Origin: a virus
Direction: 5' to 3' (one strand)
Virus record (IMG/VR): IMGVR_UViG_3300010339_000014
Location: 1-26,089 of that record
DNA length: 26,089 nt
Part shown: positions 796 through 23,881 of the stretch, piece after piece
How positions within the stretch are numbered: the stretch's first letter is position 1
Layout of the letters: each line of letters starts with the position of its first letter
The notes under the pieces: generated by a model
What the model was told of the DNA's origin: nothing
What the model saw: only the letters and a program-made list of their open reading frames with translations
The model's database searches: none
Program-made: the position numbers and the translations under genes

Positions 796-1542
796 TTAGT
801 TCTTCTGTCCGACCAGCCCGAAGTATTTGCCGATCTCCTGTGTGGCGTCGATGCGGGTGGTCAAAGGCATTTGCTTCGCAACTTCGGTGAAGGAGTTGTG
901 CAAGGACCACGCACAGCGGGGCTCGAATTCCGCATGGCGGGGGTTGAAATACTCAGAGCCGACCGCACGGAAAAAGCGCATCGGCATGGCTTCGCGGGCG
1001 AAAACGTCGTAGATCATAACCTTGGCTTCGGCGTCGGTCAGTTGGCGGTTCTTGAGGTTGTCCACTTCCAGCTTGAGGTTGACGTAGTGCTGCTCGTACT
1101 TGATCACGGCGGCGTCCAGTTCCTCGATCAGGTCCAGACCCGACGTGTGGCGGCGCTTCACGCACACCATGTCGCCGTTGAAACACATGTTGTCGCACAC
1201 GAAGATGCGCATTCCGGCGATCATTTGAATTGACATGGATTTGTCATTGGCGGTACGAATTCCGAGGGAGGCGCAGGAGCCCACGATGCCGTTGAGGTTG
1301 AGGTCAAGGGTGCCGAAGAGGCGGGAGCCATCCGCACGGATGGCGAACAGTTCATGCTCAATGTTGATGTTGCGGCGGTTGAGTGCCTTTTCGAGGGTCT
1401 CGATCAATTCGATGTGGGCAACGGGCTTGAAAGTGTCGGTGCCTTCTACCGGGGGCAAGGCCCTCAGTTCGGCTCGGGTGACGAGGTTGGTGTCAGTGTG
1501 GGCGCTTAAAACCGCTTGAGTTGCTGGTGCTGCTGCTTCCAT
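796..1542 (-). CDS. DUF932-family phage/plasmid-like protein
   Basis: A 248-residue protein that I place in the DUF932 family (PF06067, phage/plasmid-like proteins of unknown biochemical function). The recognisable signature is a central stretch with ELFAIRADGSRLFGTLDL, then GIRTANDKSMSIQMIAGMR and the Cys-containing VCDNMCFNGD, followed by a long helical region. It is shorter than many members (often around 300 residues or more), with little sequence before the core. The start is ATG at 1542 (complement), with AAAGGAG (complement of 1551-1557) 8 bases upstream. Upstream lies a perfect TATAAT box on the same strand. The gene is divergent from the giant plus-strand gene at 1671 and precedes a 58-residue gene. 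Members are common on phages and plasmids; no activity can be assigned. Family assignment fairly sure, role unknown. Confidence 0.82.
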   Translation of the reverse strand: MEAAAPATQAVLSAHTDTNLVTRAELRALPPVEGTDTFKPVAHIELIETLEKALNRRNINIEHELFAIRADGSRLFGTLDLNLNGIVGSCASLGIRTANDKSMSIQMIAGMRIFVCDNMCFNGDMVCVKRRHTSGLDLIEELDAAVIKYEQHYVNLKLEVDNLKNRQLTDAEAKVMIYDVFAREAMPMRFFRAVGSEYFNPRHAEFEPRCAWSLHNSFTEVAKQMPLTTRIDATQEIGKYFGLVGQKN

Positions 1543-1670: not shown

Positions 1671-4600
1671 ATGAACCCCCAACACAAAGCTGGCCTGCTC
1701 AAAAAGAAGGCTTTAGACGCCCTGCTGGAGATGTACAACGATCCCGAGTATGCCACCCACCAGCACCACTCGGACCCCGATTTTACGACCCAGAACGGCA
1801 AGGACTACGCCGGGCGCAATACCACGGAGCCCGAAGAGGGTCTTGATGTCAACATCCCGCCGCAAGACCTGCACTATTCGGCCGAAGAAGTGGCAAAAGA
1901 CATGGATCATCCGCTGGTGAAATGCTCGTGCGGCACGATCCTCATAAATTGCCGCTGCCCGGAGCGCATCCACGCGGCGCTGTTTCCCGGTGGCAGGCCT
2001 GCAAAGGTGATGCAGGACGGCTGCGAGAAGTGCAAGGGTGTGGTGCAGACCGATCCAAAGCTGGAGCCGCCCGAGGGCAAGGAGGACGCCGCGTTCTTCA
2101 AAGAAAGTGATCCTGACCCCGAGATGCGTCCGGTCGAGGTGGAAAGGAAAGAGCACGAGTTCTTCAAGAGAAGCCTGCCGGAATACGAGATGGTCCGGAA
2201 ATCCTCCATGCGCCCGGCCTACACCGCCAAGAAAGCGAAAGAATTCTGGGGCGAGCCGTGTACGGAATGCAACGATTACGAGCAGAACCATCCGAACATG
2301 CGGAAGCCGGAGATGGAGCCGAACGAGCAGTTCGACCGCAAGGAACCCCCGGAGCGACGCATCGCTGCCGAGAAGAAGCCCAAGTGTCCATACTGCGGTT
2401 CCAGCGATTATGCTTTGATGCCTTCCGACTTTGAGACAGCGAAGTGCAGCAAATGCGGCAAGAATTGGGACCATGGCATTGTGCCGGGCATAAATGATCC
2501 CAACGAAAAAACCGCTGCCATTAAAATCGCCCACAAGAATGTTCTTGATCCCGGCGAGTACGACTTCGAGCACGAGACGCATGTCCGCGAGGAGATGAAG
2601 CAGTGGGCGCAATACGCCGAAGAAAAGGACAACACCGAGGACATCAAGCCGTTCGATCCCAGCGGGCAATATCTTTGCGGCACATGCGATATGCGCCGGG
2701 GCACGGATGACTGCATGCGCGTCGAGGCTCCGATCAGCTTCGATACCGGAAGCTGCCGCCTGTACCACCTCGGGATCAAGCCCGAGACCGCACCCTCCAT
2801 GGATGAGAAGTTCACCAAGGAAGAGGCGAAGTACAGCGAGCACGAGGGCGGATTCGGATGCAAGCGTTGCGAGTACGGAACCGCGGCGACAAGTTCCGAT
2901 CCCGAAGGACGCCAGCTTTGGTGTTCGTTCTGGGGCACACACGTAGTCGGCGATGCGTGCTGCTCCGAGTGGGACAAGGATGACGAGAAGGACAAGCTTG
3001 AGGAAGAAGCCCGCAAGGAACTGAAGACCGGGGCAGCCAAGAAGCTCTACCATGTCACATACACCGCCAAGGTGCCCGATATCCAGAAGCAAGGCATTCT
3101 TCCGCTGCAAACATCCAACTGGGTGAAGGCCGAAAACAAGGAACGCTACGGCGGAGGAGAAATATTCGCGTTCGACCATCCGGAAGATGCGATCCGCTGG
3201 GCGGCGAAGATGGACTGGGAATTCAACAAGGAAATGGGCAGCGGGAAGATCAGCATCATCGTGTTCAAGCCCGGCAAGGAGAAGTGGGAAATCGACACAG
3301 CCGATCCCCTGAGCCAAGGCGGAGCCAAGGGGCAATGGTTGAAGGCACACGGTGCTATCAAGCCCGAGCAGATCATCAAAGTTGTGCCCGTCAATCTCAA
3401 CATGACCCGCGCCGTCGTGCAAGGCAAGCCCGTGAAGCTTGCGGGTGCGCAAAAGGAAAAGTTTGAGACGCTTGCGCACCGCTGGAACCCCCTCTACAAG
3501 GGGATTTCCACCATGGGGGACAGGGATGTCACGCTGGAGTCCTGCGCGGCTGATACCTTCGCTCTGCGGGAGTTTGCCGTCAAGTTGATCGAGTTCGTCG
3601 AGGCGAGTCCCAAGGGCGGGCTATTCGACGACGCCTACATCGGCTTTGCCAACGTGTCCCGCTACATCACCATGGCGCTCAAGAGGCTCGGCAATGTCGA
3701 GGCGGACATAAAGCGTGGCGACAAGAGCGGGCTCGATGACATAAGGAGCGAAATCATGATCGCCGCGAGCTTCCTGCACACGGCGCTCCACAACCTCAAC
3801 GCTGAGTTTTACTACTTGGAAAAGGACCGTGAACGCGTGACGGCGGCCACAAAAGCCTATGGGATGGATGTGCCTTTGGACAACCCGGCGAGTGCTGGTA
3901 CAGAATTCTACGGCACGGGCGCTCCGCTCGGCGGCACACCCAACCAGCCAGTGCCAGACCCCGAAGAGGACGAAGAAGAGCAGAAAGCCGCCGCCGCTCA
4001 AGAAGAGGAGTTGGTTGCTGAGGAAGCGCGGATAGCGGCTGAGGTTGAAGCCGAGGATCAAACGTCTATCCGCAAATCCGCCTCGTTGGCGATAAAGCTG
4101 GATTTCTCTCCGTTCAACATCGCGGCATATAAGATTGCTTTTGCGGACGATGCCGGGTGGTTCGCCAAATCCGCCCGCCCCACGCCCCAGAAAATTGAAT
4201 TGCTGCAAAAGCAATTCGGAGTGACTCCGGAGCAAATCGAGCTTTGCATCGCTGCCGATCCAAGCCCCAACCAGACGGATTACGTGGCATGGCTCACCAA
4301 GTGGTTCTCCAAGGGGCAAATCAAGCTGCCCGAGGACACGGAAAAAATCAAGGGGCAACTTGGCACGTTCAACAAGCTGAAGAGGTCTCCGGCGTTCACC
4401 CACAACAAGGACATCCAGCAGTACGACCCCGCGAAGCTGTTCGAGACGCTGGAGCAGGGACAGGGGGCGCTGAGTGAGAAGGACAAGGACCGCGACATCA
4501 TCGCCAAAGGCAGCAAGATCGTCGTGAAGGAAGGCGACCTCGTGATCTACCGGGTCACCGACCCCAAGGCTTTGTCGCTGTTGTCTGGCGGCACCAACTG

Positions 4601-7600
4601 GTGCACCGCTCAGGAATCCACTGCTGGGGGCTATTTGAAGGATGGCCCGAGCTATGTGTTCTTTGAGGGCGGCTCCGCGTTCGCACAGTTCCATCCCGCC
4701 TCCAACCAGCTAATGAACCGCCAAGATTACTGTATGGTTGAGACAGTCCATGAGGACGATCAGAGCGGATACTCCACAGGATGGGGCCGCAGCCACCGCT
4801 ATCACCAGCCCACGGTCCTGACCAAATTCATCGCCGATCCGACACTAGCCGCCGCGCTGCAAAAGCTTTCCGCCGTGGAGCCAAACGTGGCGGAGTGGTT
4901 GAAGGCGAATACTGACGATCCCGAGAAAGCCGAGAAGGCGCTAGCGGAGGCAGCCAAGGCAGAGCAGAAGGAGAACGTGCGACGGGAAAATCCCGTTTAT
5001 TACTACGGCGAACGCGAGAAGAAGTGGAGCATGACCATCCGCCACGCCCTTGCCTCGGGGAAGCAGCTTTCGCCGGAGATCGAGGCGCAGATGGGCAGCG
5101 CCTCCACCGACCTTCTGTTCAAGTACGGAACAAAGTTTCACGCCGGGCAGCGCTGGGAGCCGCTGGAGAAGGCGATCCTCAAAGGAAAGCGCACCTCCAA
5201 GAACATCATTGACTATGCCGTGAAGTTCGTCAAGGGGCGCTGGCCGGAGGGCGAACCAATGCTCCTCAGGGGCGCGTTGCTGAAAACGTACGGCAGCGGC
5301 AACATGAAGCTGGCGCTTGAATACGCGCAACGCGCGGTCAAGGGGCGCTGGCCGGAACTGGAAGCGAAATTCCACAAGGCGAAACCCAGCGAAGCTTCCG
5401 GGTATGGCTCGGCGGAATATGCCATCAACATCTTGAAGCAACGATGGGCGAGCATCGGCGTTAAGCCCCGCAGGGACGGAAAGATCAACGAAGAGGAAAT
5501 CATTATCGTGGGCGCTCCGGGCGAAGCCCGCAGGTACGCCGAGGTGTTCATGCCGGGACAGCGGTGGGCGGAATTTGAACAGGTTGCCATGGGGCACGGA
5601 TACCTTGGTGCGATGATCGATTACGCAACGCAGGTTGTCAAGGGGCGCATGCCGGAGCTTGAGGAGAAAATCCTGTCTGGCGAACGGGACGCCTTCAAGC
5701 GGGAACGCTGGGATCGCAGCCGCGACCTCGCCTTGGATTATTCAAAACAGGTCTTGAAGACCCGCTGGCCCGAGTATGAGCAGAAAATTCTCGAATACAT
5801 CAAGAACACCAAGAAAGAAAATCAGACATATACCCCCATTGGCGCAAGTCGCTATAGCTACGGACGCGCAGGCCTTCCCGATACGGTAGAAAAGTACATC
5901 GAAGAAGTTGTAGGGGCTCGTTGGCCGGAATTAGAACAAACTCTGATGAGCCGTTACCAAGAGCATCCCGACCAGTGGCCAGCCAATCAGAATTGGCTTG
6001 ACGGCTATCTCTTTGCGATCCGTGGGATGTGCGACAGGAAGGAACCGAAGAGCAATGTTCCACAGCTTCAGGACGACTTCATCGACGACCGCACGAGCGA
6101 ACTCCACCAGACGATGGATTTCGAAACCGCCCACGACCAAGCCAAGAAAGAGCAGCAGGACGCCATCGACTCCAAGTACAAAGGCAATCCGCAATGCGAA
6201 TGGCCCGAGGGCGAGAAGCGCCTGAAGAGCAGGGACGAAAATTACGAAAACCTCCTCCTGCGCGAGGTGAAAAGCGACGGGCATCGTCGCTACAAGGATG
6301 ACAGTCCCGAGGATCAAAAAAACGAATGGACCGACTACAAAGGCTATTGGGTCTCGTGGTACGGGAATTCCGAACTTGAAAAGTATGTCGATTTTATCAT
6401 GTCCCTCGGGCTGAGTTTCCCATTGGGTGAAGAACTCATGGCTGTGCAAGAGGATGTGAGTAACCGCAAATACAACCGGAGCGGAAAAAATCCCTACCGC
6501 AAGCAACAGGAACTCCAGTTCCAGTCCAGTCTTTTGAAGAAAGCCATCGTGGACTTCCACGACGCCCCCAAGATGCTCCCGCCCCGCGAGCAGTTCCGCA
6601 AGCACGTTGATGTGGAAGCCGAAAGGGATGTCATGGAAGGTGTCATGGACGGGGTGAAGCAGCCCATCAACGCGGAGCCCCTTCGCCCGAAGCCGTTGCA
6701 CAAGCAATTCGATCCAAATATCAACGGCGATCCGGAATCCTTGCTGATGCAGCAGGAAATACCGGGGATGCCGCAAATCGCCGCTGAGGTTGAGTTGCTG
6801 CCGAAGCGCACGGGCAACTGGAAGCTCTATGCTTGGCCCGCTGGCACGGTGCAGTTCGGGCAGTACGGCGAGATCAAGCGCCCCGCGCCCAAGGGGCAGG
6901 TGTGGTACGTGGGCGACAAGGCGAAAGCGCTTCCGATCATGAAAGAGAACTGGGACTTGTCCCACGGGGAAGAGAACCAGTTGCTCGAACGCGGAGCGCT
7001 GGACTTGCCGGATGTCATACTGCGCCTCACAAACGTCGATTACTATGCGCCGCCGATGAAGTTTCCGCCGAAGCAGAAAAAGTTGCTCACCGGATCGTTG
7101 CTTGAAAAGGAAGCTGGGCCATCGTGGCGAAAAACTGTGCTTCCGCTGGCACTGGGTTTGGGTCTAACTCCGGGCGCTCCAGCACAGACTCCGAAAGCAA
7201 AACCGTCAATCGAACAAAAGTATGATCCAAAGCACGACCCAGCGAACAAGTCAAGGATTGTGATTGAGCCCGCACCCGAGTCAAAACTCAAAACTCCTGT
7301 GATACATAAGAGTCCGAGCGTAGAGCCTCGGTATCTGCTCAGGCATGAGAACCGTTTTGACCCCAATGTCCTCACGCCGGAGCAAATGATCCAGAGGGGT
7401 ATTCTCCGCGGGAAATTAGACCCCACCATGAAAGCCACATTGCTGAAGAATGCGAACGAGCAGAGCGAGGAACTCCCCGACAAAACGCAAACAGACGAGG
7501 ATGAGGCCCGGCAGGCGTTCATGAAGCAGGACTACTTGTTGCAAGAGGCGCAGGATCGGAGATGCTCCATGGAAACGCTGTGGAAAGAAGTTGGGCAAGA

Positions 7601-7667
7601 CTATGCGAATGAGTACTTTGCCAGCAAAGAGAACAGGACGCCCCAAAACTGGCACGCCCAGAGGTAG
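1671..7667 (+). CDS. Giant multidomain 'polyvalent'-type phage protein (zinc ribbons, ART-like, RWPE repeats)
   Basis: A 1998-residue protein. In order: a Cys cluster C85-x-C87...C94-x-C96; a zinc ribbon C239/C242...C259/C262; two further Cys-rich patches around residues 335-430; an ADP-ribosyltransferase-like segment at about 458-575 (Y460-H-V-T, then GGGEIFAFDHPEDAIRWA and IKPEQI); a charged Ala/Glu linker near 770-800; a region around T975-N-W-C-T-A-Q like a domain seen in other large phage proteins; eight or more helical repeats centred on RWPE at about 1150-1430; and a Pro-rich C-terminal part after a short hydrophobic stretch near 1822. This architecture resembles the polyvalent proteins of phages and conjugative elements, thought to travel with the DNA and act early in the host; that role is inferred. 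The start is uncertain: no good ribosome site precedes ATG 1671, and ATATAGG directly abuts it. Confidence 0.85.
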   Translation: MNPQHKAGLLKKKALDALLEMYNDPEYATHQHHSDPDFTTQNGKDYAGRNTTEPEEGLDVNIPPQDLHYSAEEVAKDMDHPLVKCSCGTILINCRCPERIHAALFPGGRPAKVMQDGCEKCKGVVQTDPKLEPPEGKEDAAFFKESDPDPEMRPVEVERKEHEFFKRSLPEYEMVRKSSMRPAYTAKKAKEFWGEPCTECNDYEQNHPNMRKPEMEPNEQFDRKEPPERRIAAEKKPKCPYCGSSDYALMPSDFETAKCSKCGKNWDHGIVPGINDPNEKTAAIKIAHKNVLDPGEYDFEHETHVREEMKQWAQYAEEKDNTEDIKPFDPSGQYLCGTCDMRRGTDDCMRVEAPISFDTGSCRLYHLGIKPETAPSMDEKFTKEEAKYSEHEGGFGCKRCEYGTAATSSDPEGRQLWCSFWGTHVVGDACCSEWDKDDEKDKLEEEARKELKTGAAKKLYHVTYTAKVPDIQKQGILPLQTSNWVKAENKERYGGGEIFAFDHPEDAIRWAAKMDWEFNKEMGSGKISIIVFKPGKEKWEIDTADPLSQGGAKGQWLKAHGAIKPEQIIKVVPVNLNMTRAVVQGKPVKLAGAQKEKFETLAHRWNPLYKGISTMGDRDVTLESCAADTFALREFAVKLIEFVEASPKGGLFDDAYIGFANVSRYITMALKRLGNVEADIKRGDKSGLDDIRSEIMIAASFLHTALHNLNAEFYYLEKDRERVTAATKAYGMDVPLDNPASAGTEFYGTGAPLGGTPNQPVPDPEEDEEEQKAAAAQEEELVAEEARIAAEVEAEDQTSIRKSASLAIKLDFSPFNIAAYKIAFADDAGWFAKSARPTPQKIELLQKQFGVTPEQIELCIAADPSPNQTDYVAWLTKWFSKGQIKLPEDTEKIKGQLGTFNKLKRSPAFTHNKDIQQYDPAKLFETLEQGQGALSEKDKDRDIIAKGSKIVVKEGDLVIYRVTDPKALSLLSGGTNWCTAQESTAGGYLKDGPSYVFFEGGSAFAQFHPASNQLMNRQDYCMVETVHEDDQSGYSTGWGRSHRYHQPTVLTKFIADPTLAAALQKLSAVEPNVAEWLKANTDDPEKAEKALAEAAKAEQKENVRRENPVYYYGEREKKWSMTIRHALASGKQLSPEIEAQMGSASTDLLFKYGTKFHAGQRWEPLEKAILKGKRTSKNIIDYAVKFVKGRWPEGEPMLLRGALLKTYGSGNMKLALEYAQRAVKGRWPELEAKFHKAKPSEASGYGSAEYAINILKQRWASIGVKPRRDGKINEEEIIIVGAPGEARRYAEVFMPGQRWAEFEQVAMGHGYLGAMIDYATQVVKGRMPELEEKILSGERDAFKRERWDRSRDLALDYSKQVLKTRWPEYEQKILEYIKNTKKENQTYTPIGASRYSYGRAGLPDTVEKYIEEVVGARWPELEQTLMSRYQEHPDQWPANQNWLDGYLFAIRGMCDRKEPKSNVPQLQDDFIDDRTSELHQTMDFETAHDQAKKEQQDAIDSKYKGNPQCEWPEGEKRLKSRDENYENLLLREVKSDGHRRYKDDSPEDQKNEWTDYKGYWVSWYGNSELEKYVDFIMSLGLSFPLGEELMAVQEDVSNRKYNRSGKNPYRKQQELQFQSSLLKKAIVDFHDAPKMLPPREQFRKHVDVEAERDVMEGVMDGVKQPINAEPLRPKPLHKQFDPNINGDPESLLMQQEIPGMPQIAAEVELLPKRTGNWKLYAWPAGTVQFGQYGEIKRPAPKGQVWYVGDKAKALPIMKENWDLSHGEENQLLERGALDLPDVILRLTNVDYYAPPMKFPPKQKKLLTGSLLEKEAGPSWRKTVLPLALGLGLTPGAPAQTPKAKPSIEQKYDPKHDPANKSRIVIEPAPESKLKTPVIHKSPSVEPRYLLRHENRFDPNVLTPEQMIQRGILRGKLDPTMKATLLKNANEQSEELPDKTQTDEDEARQAFMKQDYLLQEAQDRRCSMETLWKEVGQDYANEYFASKENRTPQNWHAQR
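5130..5945 (+). repeat. RWPE-type tandem helical repeats within the giant protein
   Basis: At least seven imperfect copies of a unit of about 20-50 residues with consensus Y-A-x-x-V-x-K-G-R-W-P-E-x-E are encoded here. Examples are YAVKFVKGRWPEGE, YAQRAVKGRWPELE, YATQVVKGRMPELE, YSKQVLKTRWPEYE and YIEEVVGARWPELE, with degenerate copies such as GQRWEPLEKA and GQRWAEFEQV. Similar repeats are known to me from large phage proteins. They look like stacked helical hairpins that could act as a spacer or binding surface. At DNA level the short block AAGGGGCGCTGGCCGGA recurs, so copies could recombine. Confidence 0.8.
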
Positions 7668-8544: not shown

Positions 8545-9456
8545 ATGTCTTTCAAGAAATACGCAAATGCGGTAATAACCGAACCGGTCCTCAAGCTGGA
8601 AGACTGGGAAAAGATGTACGGCAACCGTGCGTTTCGCGGATGCCGCATCGATGGGGACCACCCATTTTGCAAGATGGCATCCATGCGAAAGCTTGCTGCG
8701 GAAACCAGCAAGTATTTGTTGTCCCATGTAACCATCATGGCGTCAGTCCAAACTGAAAAAGAGCCCCTTGACTATCTGATCAAGCCCGAATGCTCGGCGA
8801 TGGTCAATAATAACGACGATGCGTGGGAAAACATGGTTTTGAAGCTGTCCGCTCCTTCATTTGTTGGCGCTTTTAACTTCGTCGAACACTTCCAAAATTC
8901 CAAGTACACAAAGGGGCACATATTAAGCCACGTCCTCCGCAAGATAACACTGGCACCCGATGTTTGGATTTATTACTGCGATCTCCTTGTGGCCACCGAT
9001 CTTACGCATGAAAAGCTTGTTGATGACATCCGCAACAACAAGGTCCGCTACCTGAGCATGGGCTGCGTGACCGACCTCGTGATCTGCTCCTATTGCGGGG
9101 CGCATATCACCGACGCCAGCACCTACTGCAACCACCTCCAGTTCCAGAAGGGCACCTTCCTCGCCGACGACGATGGCATCCCCCGCAGGATCGCCGAGCT
9201 TTGTGGCCACAAGAGCATGCCCAACGGCGGCGTGAAATTCGTGGAGGCAAGCTGGGTCGCCACCCCCGCCTTTCCCGGAGCCGCTAAGCGAAGCATCGTG
9301 TCGGACGAGTGGATCGGGCCGAAGACCCCTTACACCCAGAAACAAAGTTCTGCTGGCAAATTCGCAATGACAGCCTCGGAAAATACTGAATTTGAATCTC
9401 TTTCGTTGGGGGAAGCTTTACTCAATGCTGACCTCCATGGGGAATTGAGACGCTAA
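8545..9456 (+). CDS. Probable prohead (capsid maturation) protease with inserted zinc-finger-like motif
   Basis: 303 residues, placed just before a scaffold-like protein. The segment WIYYCDLLVATDLTHEKL...VRYLS171MG matches the pattern of HK97/herpes-assemblin-type proteases, where a beta-strand and helix precede L-S-x-G carrying the nucleophile. S171 is thus the predicted catalytic Ser, and a His in GHILSHVLRK the likely partner. Directly after it lies C181-x2-C184...C195-x-H197, a zinc-finger-like insertion. The C-terminal part (VEASWVATPAFPGA) fits the strand that follows the active site in the family. The protein would degrade the scaffold and trim head proteins during maturation. The start has AGGAG 15 bases upstream inside the preceding HNH gene, a rather long spacing. 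Alternative: a structural protein of unknown role. The protease call rests on motif and gene order. Confidence 0.65.
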   Translation: MSFKKYANAVITEPVLKLEDWEKMYGNRAFRGCRIDGDHPFCKMASMRKLAAETSKYLLSHVTIMASVQTEKEPLDYLIKPECSAMVNNNDDAWENMVLKLSAPSFVGAFNFVEHFQNSKYTKGHILSHVLRKITLAPDVWIYYCDLLVATDLTHEKLVDDIRNNKVRYLSMGCVTDLVICSYCGAHITDASTYCNHLQFQKGTFLADDDGIPRRIAELCGHKSMPNGGVKFVEASWVATPAFPGAAKRSIVSDEWIGPKTPYTQKQSSAGKFAMTASENTEFESLSLGEALLNADLHGELRR

Positions 9457-11623: not shown

Positions 11624-11732
11624 TTAGATTTAGGCCCAAAAGGCCCAGTATTAGGTTACGGCAACGGGTGACTTAGAACGCAGAAGACTTACTGAGCATA
11701 ACGATACACCCACCGTTTGAGAGCGTTGTCTC

Positions 11733-11811
11733 GCGTCCGTGGTCAAATTGGTGAAGGCATCGGCTTGGTAAGTCGAGGATTCTGTGAGTTCGAATCTCAC
11801 CGGACGCACCA
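11733..11811 (+). tRNA. tRNA-Thr (anticodon GGT), CCA encoded
   Basis: The cloverleaf is complete: acceptor GCGTCCG (11733-11739) with CGGACGC (11801-11807); 3-bp D stem 42-44/56-58 and an 11-nt loop containing GG; anticodon stem TCGGC/GTCGA with one G.T pair and loop TTGGTAA, giving anticodon GGT (reads ACC/ACU); T arm GTGAG-TTCGAAT-CTCAC; discriminator A; genomic CCA. The 7-nt variable loop is slightly long for a class I tRNA. ACC is a frequent Thr codon in the structural genes here, so the tRNA may support late translation. It lies alone between the scaffold gene and a strong terminator. Confidence 0.88.
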
Positions 11812-11830
11812 ACAATCTTACCAAGCCGAC
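11760..11830. repeat. 13-nt perfect inverted repeat: tRNA anticodon arm versus downstream trailer
   Basis: TCGGCTTGGTAAG (11760-11772), the 5' anticodon stem, the whole loop and one further base of the tRNA, is exactly complementary to CTTACCAAGCCGA (11817-11829). That begins 5 bases after the tRNA's CCA and before the terminator. In the primary transcript the two could pair and block the anticodon arm. Confidence 0.9.
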
Positions 11831-11854
11831 GCTCCTGAAGTTTAGAAGCATCGA

Positions 11855-11886
11855 ACAAAACCCCCTTAACTGGGGGTTTTGTTTTT
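11855..11886 (+). terminator. Strong intrinsic terminator after the tRNA
   Basis: An 11-bp stem (ACAAAACCCCC with GGGGGTTTTGT) has a 6-nt loop and a following T-run at 11882-11886. It closes the transcript that carries the scaffold gene and/or the tRNA. Confidence 0.9.
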
Positions 11887-16740: not shown

Positions 16741-17700
16741 ATGGCTAATCTATCTCGCACACAACAGCAAACCGCAATGCTCGGTCAGCTTCTCAAGACC
16801 GCTGGCGGCCGCCAGAAGCTCGCTGCTTCTCTCGGTCCTTCCCTCCGTCGTCGTCGTGACTATATGAGTATCGCCCGCAAGGCGCTCATGGTCGAGACGC
16901 TCCCGGATGGTGCGTTGCCCATCTATGACAAGGAATTTGATACCTCCGCGATGACCGTGGGTTCCACCCCCGGATCGTCCTTCGTCGAAGCATTCGTGGT
17001 TGGCGAAGAGGGCGGAGACATCGTTCGTGTCACCAAGCCCAAGAGGGTCACTGTGCCGACGTTTGAAATCGTCAGCAACCCGATGATCCCCATCACCCAG
17101 ATCAAGGAGCGCCGTTTCGATCTCGTCGCCCGCTCGCTCAACTTGGCTAAGGCCGAAGTTGGCGCGCAGGAAGACGGATACGTCTTCGGTCTTTTTGACG
17201 CCGTGGCCACTGCCGCTGCTGGCAAGTCGGCCAACGACCCGGTTTACAACGTGAGCATCGCCATCAACGCCCCCATCGACATTAACTCGATGGCAGACGG
17301 TTTTGGGCAGGTGCAGCGCCACGACCTCTCGGTGGCATTCATCTTCTTCAACCCGAGGGATTATACCGACTTGCTCAAGTGGACTCAACAAAACATCGAC
17401 AGGGAAACCCAGCGCAAGCTCCTCAAGACCGGCGTCATGGGCTATCTCTGGGGCGCAACGCTCCTCCAGTCCCGTAAGGTCGGCTACGGCTCGATCTACA
17501 TTCTGGCGGACGCAGAGTTCCTCGGCGTGATCCCCGAACGTATTCCGCTCACCGTCATGAGCGCCGACCGTCCTGACCTCCGTCAGATCGGCTTCTCGAT
17601 CTTCGAGAACCTCGGCTTCCTCGTGTTCAACCCGTCCGGCATTCAAGTGCTTCACGTGAACGGACGCTACAGTTCAACCGCCAACACCGGCGAGAACTAA
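16741..17700 (+). CDS. Major capsid protein (HK97 fold)
   Basis: 319 residues. The sequence has the layout of an HK97-type capsid subunit of the kind found in large myoviruses: a basic helical N-arm (LSRTQQQTAMLGQLLKTAGG...LRRRRDYMSIARKALM), an extended-loop region with VTVPTFEIVSNPMIPITQIKERRFDLVARS, the P-domain spine helix (AEVGAQEDGYVFGLFDAVATAA), the A-domain with DLSVAFIFFNPRDYTDLL, and a C-terminal strand region (GSIYILADAEFLGVIPERIPLTV...GFLVFNPSGIQVLHV). There is no separate N-terminal delta domain of the length seen in HK97, consistent with a separate scaffold gene. Gene order (protease, scaffold, decoration, capsid, terminator) supports the call. A strong terminator follows, as expected for the most abundant late product. 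Confidence 0.88.
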   Translation: MANLSRTQQQTAMLGQLLKTAGGRQKLAASLGPSLRRRRDYMSIARKALMVETLPDGALPIYDKEFDTSAMTVGSTPGSSFVEAFVVGEEGGDIVRVTKPKRVTVPTFEIVSNPMIPITQIKERRFDLVARSLNLAKAEVGAQEDGYVFGLFDAVATAAAGKSANDPVYNVSIAINAPIDINSMADGFGQVQRHDLSVAFIFFNPRDYTDLLKWTQQNIDRETQRKLLKTGVMGYLWGATLLQSRKVGYGSIYILADAEFLGVIPERIPLTVMSADRPDLRQIGFSIFENLGFLVFNPSGIQVLHVNGRYSSTANTGEN

Positions 17701-18263: not shown

Positions 18264-18462
18264 GGACATCCCTTGGGTTGTTGACCATTGCAGTATGTGC
18301 CATCGCTGGCTGGACACCCACAATGCTGTTATGAACCTTGGCAAGCATGAAAACGATTTGATTGCATGCTGTTGTTTGGCGTACCGCCTGCTGTATCCCG
18401 GCGACGCAGATAATGCCATTTGCATGAGCGAGCGCAAAGGCTACGCTCTCCGAGGCAAATAA
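18250..18462 (+). CDS. Small Cys/His-rich protein (70 aa)
   Basis: GTG 18250 to TAA 18462 encodes 70 residues. It overlaps the preceding gene by 14 bases, and its stop overlaps the HNH start by one base (TAATG), a typical coupling arrangement. It holds several Cys and His residues (TCKDIPWVVDHCSMCHRWLDTH; HENDLIACCCLAYRLLYP), suggesting a small zinc-binding fold. The C-x2-C-H pair with the later C-C-C could form one site. The start is uncertain: only a weak purine-rich sequence precedes the GTG. An ATG at 18295 would give a shorter product without ribosome site. No family recognised. Confidence 0.45.
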   Translation: MRTCKDIPWVVDHCSMCHRWLDTHNAVMNLGKHENDLIACCCLAYRLLYPGDADNAICMSERKGYALRGK

Positions 18463-18797
18463 TGCCTCGAACCCCACGTAAAACTCAATGGGATCGCACC
18501 GCAAGCAAATGCGACGGCCGCTGCTGGTACTGCGGGCATCTTCCCGACCCCGACGACCTCACGGTGGACCATGCCCTTCCTCGTTCCCGCGGCGGATTCA
18601 ACCACGACGACAACTTGCTTCCGTCTTGTTCCAACTGCAACAATACCAAGGCTAACATGACGGTTAGCGAGTTCCGGAAGTACTGTAAGGTGGCTGTTAT
18701 CCGCAGGGCAATTACCCTTGGCTACTATGCGGGAGATTTAAGTCGAATCAAGATCATGTTTTTTGGTGAAGGCAACTCCAATCCCTTCAGTTTCTAA
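18462..18797 (+). CDS. Small HNH endonuclease (111 aa)
   Basis: A compact HNH domain fills most of the protein: the zinc pair C21-W-Y-C24-G, the catalytic D36-H37 in LTVDHALPRSRGG, N51 in DDNLLPSC, and C56-S-N-C59-N60. These are the classical HNH residues of the McrA/homing type. No separate DNA-binding domain is present, only a basic N-terminus (MPRTPRKTQWDR) and a C-terminal helix. The start overlaps the previous stop (TAATG) with CGAGG 6 bases upstream, so it is coupled to the 70-residue gene. In phages these minimal enzymes are usually selfish; some HNH enzymes near terminase genes take part in packaging, but no terminase is seen here. Confidence 0.88.
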   Translation: MPRTPRKTQWDRTASKCDGRCWYCGHLPDPDDLTVDHALPRSRGGFNHDDNLLPSCSNCNNTKANMTVSEFRKYCKVAVIRRAITLGYYAGDLSRIKIMFFGEGNSNPFSF

Positions 18798-18834: not shown

Positions 18835-19590
18835 ATGGGCATCGTCTACCTAATCACCAACAACGTCAACGGCAAGTTGTACATAGGGCAAACCACCCTA
18901 CCTTTGGCTGCCCGCTGGAAGCTTCACGTCAGTGCTGCTCGCCGTCGAGTCCGTGGTTCTCCTTATCTTGAAGCAGCTATCCGCAAACACGGTGTCAGAG
19001 CTTTTTCTTTTCGAGAATTGACACAAGCTAATTCGCAGGAAGAATTGAACGTTCTAGAAAGGCGATACATTGAGGAGTGTGGAACGCGTTCAACCGGATA
19101 CAACCTTGCCGCTGGTGGACAAAATATAAACCACGCAAAACAGTCGGACTCAGCACGGCTTCGGGCAAACCCCACGAGAGGAAGAAAGTGGATTTATAAG
19201 GACGGGCAAAAAGCGCGAGTGCTTCAAAGTGAAGTCGAAGCTTACTTAGAATTCGGCTGGTGTTTGGGTCAGGGAAACAGACGTTCTATATCGATAGAGG
19301 CCCGCCAAAAGATTAGCAGGGCTTTCAAGGGAAAGCAACTAACGGATGAGCACCGTAAAAACATCGCAACGGGATTGCTTGGACGGCAGTGTTCCGAAAA
19401 TACCCGTAAAAGAATCAGTGAGAAATGGACACCAGAACGTAAGAATGCCCTACGGCTGTGCACCATCAAAAGGAACAAAGCTCAAATTGGAACGCGTTGG
19501 ATTACAAGAGGCGGGATTAACAAACGAGTTTCATCTGAAGAAGCAACCACTCACGTTGGACAGGGCTGGCAATTCGGACGGGTGCTTTAA
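18835..19590 (+). CDS. GIY-YIG homing endonuclease with NUMOD-type DNA-binding repeats
   Basis: 251 residues. The N-terminal nuclease domain carries G2-I-V-Y5 and L15-Y-I-G18 with R27 on the following helix, and ends with LERRYIEECGTRSTGYNLAAGG, which contains the metal-binding Glu and a conserved Asn. The middle has two to three NUMOD3-like repeats (SIEARQKISRAFKGKQ; TDEHRKNIATGLLGRQ; SENTRKRISEKW), known to contact DNA in Seg-type and intron-encoded enzymes. Two copies of a W-I-x-K/R-G-G/x...V-x-S/x-E...GW-x-G/F-G-type module flank them (RKWIYKDGQ...FGWCLG; TRWITRGGI...GWQFG). It is A+T-richer than its neighbours. Its stop overlaps the next gene's start by one base (TAATG). The ribosome site is weak. 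A free-standing selfish gene. Confidence 0.92.
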   Translation: MGIVYLITNNVNGKLYIGQTTLPLAARWKLHVSAARRRVRGSPYLEAAIRKHGVRAFSFRELTQANSQEELNVLERRYIEECGTRSTGYNLAAGGQNINHAKQSDSARLRANPTRGRKWIYKDGQKARVLQSEVEAYLEFGWCLGQGNRRSISIEARQKISRAFKGKQLTDEHRKNIATGLLGRQCSENTRKRISEKWTPERKNALRLCTIKRNKAQIGTRWITRGGINKRVSSEEATTHVGQGWQFGRVL

Positions 19591-23302: not shown

Positions 23303-23881
23303 ATGCTGGTTTACCGTATCACAAATACGGTGAACGGCAAGGTCTATATCGGCATCCACGGGAAGACTTCCGACGTACAAAACCGTTGGATGGTTCATCT
23401 GAAAAAGGCGAAGTGCGGTAGTCAGTTGTATATCCACCGCGCTATCCGCAAGTATGGGCCGGGCTCTTTCACCGTCGAAGTCTTGCATCATGCCAAGACT
23501 GAGGAAGAACTCCGTGCAATGGAGACTTTTTTCATCGCCCAGCATCAATCCCATATTCGTGAAAACGGTTACAACCAGACTTCAGGCGGTGATGGCCTTT
23601 GGAATCCTTCGGACGAGCTTCGAAGGAGATTAAGCAGAATCCACACAGAAACTCAAGCCTCACCAGAATATCGTGCGAAGATGAGCGCAAAAATGAAGCT
23701 GGTTACGCCAACTGCAAACAATTGCTGTAAGTCAAAATCTGTACACTGTTTGGATACGGGTGAAACGTTCCCGTCTCTGCAAGAAGTTGTGGAACGTCTC
23801 GGTGGTTGCACAAGAAATTTATCCCGAGCCATTCAACGTAACTGGAAGTTCTTCGGAAGGCGTTTTGAGTATGTCCAATAA
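23303..23881 (+). CDS. GIY-YIG homing endonuclease with NUMOD1 tail (192 aa)
   Basis: The N-terminal nuclease domain shows V3-Y-R-I and the paired K-V-Y-I-G strand, an Arg/His-containing helix (NRWMVHLKKAKCG), and AMETFFIAQHQSH...NGYNQTSGGDG with the metal-ligand Glu. A short NUMOD3-like stretch follows (SDELRRRLSRIHTETQ; SPEYRAKMSAKMK). The C-terminus is a NUMOD1-type helix-turn-helix (SVHCLDTGETFPSLQEVVERLG...AIQRNWKFFGRRFEYV), which binds DNA in homing enzymes. GAGGAA precedes ATG 23303. Its last 11 bases overlap the next gene, whose ribosome site (GGAAGG, 23855-23860) lies in this gene. It resembles the 18835 enzyme in class but has a different tail, so it is not a recent copy. Confidence 0.92.
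   Translation: MLVYRITNTVNGKVYIGIHGKTSDVQNRWMVHLKKAKCGSQLYIHRAIRKYGPGSFTVEVLHHAKTEEELRAMETFFIAQHQSHIRENGYNQTSGGDGLWNPSDELRRRLSRIHTETQASPEYRAKMSAKMKLVTPTANNCCKSKSVHCLDTGETFPSLQEVVERLGGCTRNLSRAIQRNWKFFGRRFEYVQ

Follow-up and report, generated by a model that had tools for sequence, protein, structure and literature searches.

The window, that is, the whole stretch of DNA analysed here, comprises positions 1 to 26,089 of the 26-kb virus record IMGVR_UViG_3300010339_000014. On its gene content, it belongs to the late module of a jumbo acidobacterial phage, a relative of Tunturiibacter phage Tunturi_5, since it carries a major head protein gene (16741-17700, PHROG 2522), whose product is 72% identical to that of Tunturi_5, together with a gene matching the head maturation protease family (8545-9456). 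Related viral contigs are numerous in IMG/VR. Among the other genes of the window, one encodes a 1998-aa protein (1671-7667) without Pfam or PHROG match, the translation of which displays CxxC motifs of zinc-ribbon type close to the N-terminus and an RWPE-containing motif that recurs, and free-standing HNH and GIY-YIG endonuclease genes are scattered through the late module (18420-18797, 18835-19590 and 23303-23881 in the window). ARAGORN analysis of the whole window returned a single tRNA gene, at 11733-11811, which sits between the stop codon of a 721-aa late gene and a terminator. The features of this locus are as follows.

11638 to 11653, + strand: promoter-like motif AAAAGGCCCAGTATTA, 15 nt past the stop codon of the upstream 721-aa late gene
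11654 to 11732, + strand: 5' leader, spanning the stretch from the promoter-like motif to the tRNA
11733 to 11811, + strand: tRNA gene with anticodon GGT and encoded CCA (ARAGORN; Rfam RF00005, 57.3 bits)
11760 to 11772, + strand: target arm TCGGC-TTGGTAA-G, comprising the 5' anticodon stem, the loop and one further base (repeat search)
11817 to 11832, + strand: anti-arm element CTTACCAAGCCGA(CGC), with 13 exact pairs, one A-C mismatch and further pairs after it (repeat search)
11831 to 11849, + strand: small imperfect hairpin GCTCCT-GAAGTTT-AGAAGC, directly after the anti-arm (read from the sequence)
11854 to 11886, + strand: intrinsic terminator AACAAAACCCCC-TTAACT-GGGGGTTTTGTT with a T tail (terminator and repeat search)

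The core of the anti-arm, CTTACCAAGCCGA at 11817-11829, is the exact complement of 11760-11772 and starts 5 nt past the encoded CCA. The match takes in the 5 nt of the anticodon stem on its 5' side, all 7 nt of the loop and the initial base of the 3' strand, which bears out a preliminary description of this locus that had reported a perfect 13-nt antisense copy after the CCA with boundaries coinciding with those of the anticodon arm. When one mismatch was allowed, the inverted repeat extended to 16 nt (11757-11772 with 11817-11832). A search for TCGGCTTGGTAAG allowing up to two mismatches returned two sites in the window, both of them exact (11760-11772 on the + strand and 11817-11829 on the - strand), and the best target of the window anti-arm among all tRNAs compared was its own arm.

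The same description had regarded a 13-base match at this distance as very unlikely by chance, which proved to be overstated. Non-redundant sequence of related phages, 2.65 Mb in total, contains 25 perfect inverted repeats that are 12 nt or longer and have arms separated by 30-120 nt, compared with 14-16 in Markov-shuffled sequence; repeats of such size thus turn up roughly every 100 kb in these phages, close to the chance level. The single repeat in the window is weak evidence when taken alone, and its significance comes from relatives that repeat the arrangement.

Two related cassettes, also from these giant soil phages, have the same design with different tRNAs. The first (L014 and identical contigs) contains a lone tRNA with anticodon GGG, the trailer complement of which is 12 nt when exact and 17 nt with G-U pairs, and the other (L303) contains a lone tRNA with anticodon CTG and a complement of 11 nt exact, or 18 contiguous nt with one G-U pair. 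The tRNAs of the three cassettes (GGT, GGG and CTG) are mutually unrelated in sequence, and in all three the best target of the trailer is its own arm. A cloverleaf was recognised by both ARAGORN and Rfam in the window and L303 tRNAs and by ARAGORN only in the L014 tRNA, with the L014 record having no Rfam match at E 1e-3. Across 507 distinct tRNAs (319 from these phages, 88 from hosts, 84 from other phages and 16 from random viral contigs), a trailer complement longer than 10 nt was present in three, namely those of the window, L014 and L303, and the three cassettes also took ranks 1, 2 and 3 for arm-trailer duplex energy among 314 tRNAs. The GGG cassette was found by the search itself and the CTG cassette later, among loci fetched via a neighbouring gene, so that the latter constitutes the cleanest independent test. 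Within the GGG cassette, a further anti-arm copy of lower quality, TTTTCCCAAGGGC (L014 307-335), separates the tRNA from the good copy, and it too has the cassette's own arm as its best target.

When the three cassettes were aligned on the anticodon, 17 pairs lined up in a common register that starts 4 nt ahead of the anticodon stem and ends one base past the loop. In this alignment 50 of 51 pair cells form (98%) and 11 of the 17 pairs are changed on both sides, while sliding the partner by one column reduced pairing to 39-46%; the aligned segments were picked for pairing, so these counts show a shared register and do not amount to an independent probability. Chance alone was rejected on the basis of this recurrence in the same register across three cassettes, and the pairing between arm and trailer is, on these sequence comparisons, well supported.

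Comparison of 96 late-gene 3' slots of relatives revealed a tRNA in only three, all three with an anti-arm. The L014 and L303 cassettes occupy one genomic slot, with a common upstream promoter region (83.6%) and entirely different tRNA and anti-arm blocks; arm and anti-arm therefore differ together, as if they had been swapped as a matched unit. The preliminary description had named relatives carrying the same tRNA without the trailer element as evidence that would count against it. No such relative was found: in relatives such as L003, whose flanks are 88% identical to those of the window and whose slot holds a plain terminator, the whole cassette is absent, and the related lone cassettes have a different tRNA together with a matching trailer. 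Several genes near these slots were also recorded: a DUF932 gene in the window (796-1542, - strand) lies downstream of the gene after which two relatives have tRNA cassettes, a gene beside the GGG cassette (L014 440-895) reads as an HNH-type endonuclease from its sequence, and the L297 slot near 4506 contains, by eye, an apparent short remnant of a transposon-associated (TnpB-like) gene.

The sample consists of three cassettes from one phage group, with the GGG cassette copies all identical, and the relatives compared contained neither a close homologue of the window cassette nor diverged copies of any single cassette. The pattern CTTGGTAAGN{35,65}CTTACCAAG matched 22 contigs across IMG/VR and 0 tRNAs, and thus no other tRNA-Thr(GGT) with the same trailer, and a looser pattern with CACCA yielded no further anti-arm tRNA among the IMG/VR matches listed. 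Scans via a divergent major capsid protein, via the tail sheath and via a divergent relative of the first gene of the window returned no new cassette. Lone tRNAs elsewhere in L258 and L262 have no anti-arm, and no such trailer was observed among the tRNAs examined of Tunturi_5, the closest isolate found.

The order of the unit is the same in all three cassettes: promoter-like motif, leader, tRNA, anti-arm, small hairpin and terminator. They have in common the start motif AAAAGnnnAGTATT[AG], represented in the window by AAAAGGCCCAGTATTA, which was not found in the other slot sequences listed (the late-gene 3' slots of relatives). The sequence [CG]AGTATTA, located at 11647-11653 of the window and in many further intergenic regions (e.g. 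L062, L230, L646 and L694), is the top strand-biased 8-mer of co-directional intergenic regions in these phages, in which CAGTATTA occurs 39 times in sense and 2 times in antisense orientation; because this bias is the strongest in such regions, [CG]AGTATTA is probably the phage's own promoter. A co-transcribed 3' UTR without a promoter is less likely, given the promoter-like motif. Small hairpins comparable to that of the window also lie 3' of the anti-arm in the L014 and L303 cassettes. Of the 319 tRNAs of the phage group, 5 have a terminator no more than 150 nt away, and 3 of those 5 belong to the anti-arm cassettes. Unlike a canonical phage tRNA gene, the window tRNA lies outside any tRNA cluster and has its own terminator, and the trailers of the cassettes combine a pairing region with an intrinsic terminator, as does a functional tRNA trailer of the 3'ETS type.

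The bodies of these tRNAs are unlike those of the isotypes given by their anticodons. When the anticodon arm was masked for comparison, the closest genes were phage tRNA-Leu for the window tRNA and tRNA-Lys for the CTG tRNA, and the GGG tRNA, which has a long variable arm, G73 and A37, is nearest to Leu at low similarity with nothing close, so none of the bodies was assigned to the Thr, Pro or Gln of the anticodons GGT, GGG and CTG in this nearest-neighbour test, an approximate one that uses a small reference set and is right for 82% of other tRNAs. Because body isotype and anticodon differ, the amino acid loaded may not match the anticodon, which we regard as a lead and not as proof. Alternatively, the mismatch could indicate that the tRNA never decodes.

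Since three unrelated tRNAs have the same arrangement, the tail is probably functional and not accidental, and it probably switches or masks its own tRNA. The explanation we favour, tentatively and with slightly less than even confidence, is that the cassette is a self-contained phage RNA gene with a bistable precursor, in which the trailer masks or unfolds the anticodon arm in cis and thereby gates decoding. The precursor would have two mutually exclusive folds, namely the cloverleaf and an alternative made when the trailer anneals to the loop and invades the stem at its 5' strand. By spanning the unpaired loop together with one strand of the stem, the element is built as toehold-mediated strand invasion would require: the 7-nt loop would act as the toehold, and 13-18 pairs would replace the 5-pair anticodon stem. 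As long as the trailer is attached, the anticodon would be masked and the arm open, and a tRNA that can read codons would be set free once the trailer is cut or trimmed, so that the anti-arm would gate in cis when, or whether, the tRNA with a GGT anticodon and a Leu-like body decodes. A point against this fold is that the linker between the CCA and the anti-arm is just 5 nt in the window, and the acceptor stem would therefore probably have to open too. RNA folding predicted the anti-arm fold to be more stable than an enforced cloverleaf, by 4.0, 6.6 and 13.8 kcal/mol for the respective members, energies that describe secondary structure only and leave out tertiary contacts, modified bases and co-transcriptional folding, the last of which would favour the cloverleaf because it is made first. 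A switchable precursor was one of the options raised in the preliminary description, and these predicted energies, along with the pairing kept across three tRNAs, support it as the best reading. Use of the promoter, folding in the cell and the gating of decoding are what we infer from the sequence, as distinct from features read directly from it.

A second option of that description, an RNA released against host tRNA-Thr(GGT), gained no support from the host genes. Host tRNA-Thr genes read CTTGGTAAG-GGAG, CTTGGTAAG-GAGG and similar, and the arm sought in them differs, with a 5' stem of CTCCC in complete host genes compared with TCGGC in the phage tRNA. The trailer is complementary to host tRNA-Thr over about 9 nt, as against 13 nt for its own tRNA, which makes host-directed antisense unlikely, and we rejected it. 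A trailer that is excised and acts in trans as a small antisense RNA on the mature form of the same phage tRNA, or on other phage tRNAs, is a more serious candidate, which we nevertheless consider unlikely. Its layout of a seed followed by a terminator hairpin is that of bacterial sRNAs, its best target in each cassette is the cassette's own arm, and a functional excised tRNA trailer has a precedent in E. coli 3'ETS-leuZ (PMC8166272). However, host tRNA arms fit poorly, and tRNA and trailer are present 1:1 on a single transcript, so cis pairing should win; moreover, the window phage is seen through a 26-kb fragment, with its full tRNA set beyond the record.

The trailer might instead be a neutral relic without function, written when template switching during replication placed an inverted copy of the arm downstream, which corresponds to the inverted duplication also considered in the preliminary description. 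Template switching yields perfect inverted copies at short distance, and RNA hairpins made in this way (PMC8794818) resemble the cassettes in having such a copy near its source; the perfect copy in the window and the second, poorer copy in the GGG cassette would both fit. This origin seems improbable, and the earlier suggestion is weakened, as genome-wide inverted repeats exceed chance only slightly, the same arm in the same register would be needed in three unrelated lone tRNAs and in none of the other 504, and, unlike template-switch hairpins, the cassettes recur on one tRNA arm only and keep their pairing through G-U pairs and two-sided changes. The 13-18 bp duplex could also serve in processing or protection instead of acting as a decoding switch, e.g. 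as a target of RNase III or by guarding the accumulating precursor from anticodon nucleases. The three duplexes are long and nearly contiguous, and evasion of host anticodon nucleases has been proposed for phage tRNAs (PMC10264068), but a masked arm would shield the unprocessed tRNA only and no nuclease is known for these cassettes, and we consider this explanation quite improbable. Least convincing is a role of the repeat as DNA, its two halves being sites for recombination or for a homing endonuclease with the anticodon loop at their centre, a role to which we assign a very low probability. Anticodon arms of tRNAs are classical integration cores, and homing-type endonuclease genes are frequent in the late module, one of them adjoining the GGG cassette; yet no recombinase was seen beside the cassettes, no endonuclease gene directly adjoins the window or CTG cassette, the matching half-site is one-sided, and the G-U substitutions fit RNA and not DNA.

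Among known systems, T-box riboswitches are non-coding RNAs that pair with an anticodon and precede a terminator, and the cassette trailers are likewise non-coding, anticodon-pairing and followed by a terminator. T-boxes, however, read tRNA in trans through a 3-nt specifier, whereas the cassettes pair over 13-18 nt in cis and their terminator does not overlap the element; in the window only the tRNA reached the Rfam gathering score, and no T-box did. The nearest precedent is the functional trailer 3'ETS-leuZ, an excised tRNA trailer of E. coli that serves as an sRNA sponge for RyhB and RybB (Lalaouna et al. 2015, via PMC8166272). It is likewise a tRNA trailer with a single-stranded part pairing with another RNA, but its targets are sRNAs, whereas a cassette trailer has its best target within its own transcript, in the anticodon arm, and its match differs from tRNA to tRNA. 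In being phage-encoded, with an anticodon arm unlike that of the host, the cassettes also resemble ordinary phage tRNA genes, among them those for which evasion of anticodon nucleases has been proposed (van den Berg et al. 2023, PMC10264068). In contrast to them, the cassettes are lone and possess their own promoter-like motif and terminator, an off-isotype body and an anti-arm trailer, the last of which was present in 0 of the 504 other tRNAs examined. We found no description, in the open-licence literature, of a tRNA gene that also specifies an antisense to the anticodon arm of its product.

A broader proposal, which is possible although we hold it to be doubtful, is that the cassettes represent a new class of phage RNA gene, in which a tRNA-shaped RNA with an exchangeable anticodon arm is always encoded with its own cis-antisense and would provide a self-masked or conditionally unmasked, mis-decoding or decoy tRNA during infection, e.g. 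against tRNA-targeting defences. Why phages carry tRNAs is a long-standing question, to which the cassettes contribute three phage tRNAs that are apparently transcribed from promoters of their own and carry the complement of the anticodon arm within the same gene. Should the switch exist, this would be, as far as we found, the first tRNA whose availability is controlled in cis by the trailer attached to it, and a compact natural device for decoding on condition. In phage T4, the small stable RNAs rnaC and rnaD are located just past the tRNA cluster (L737 10909-11172).
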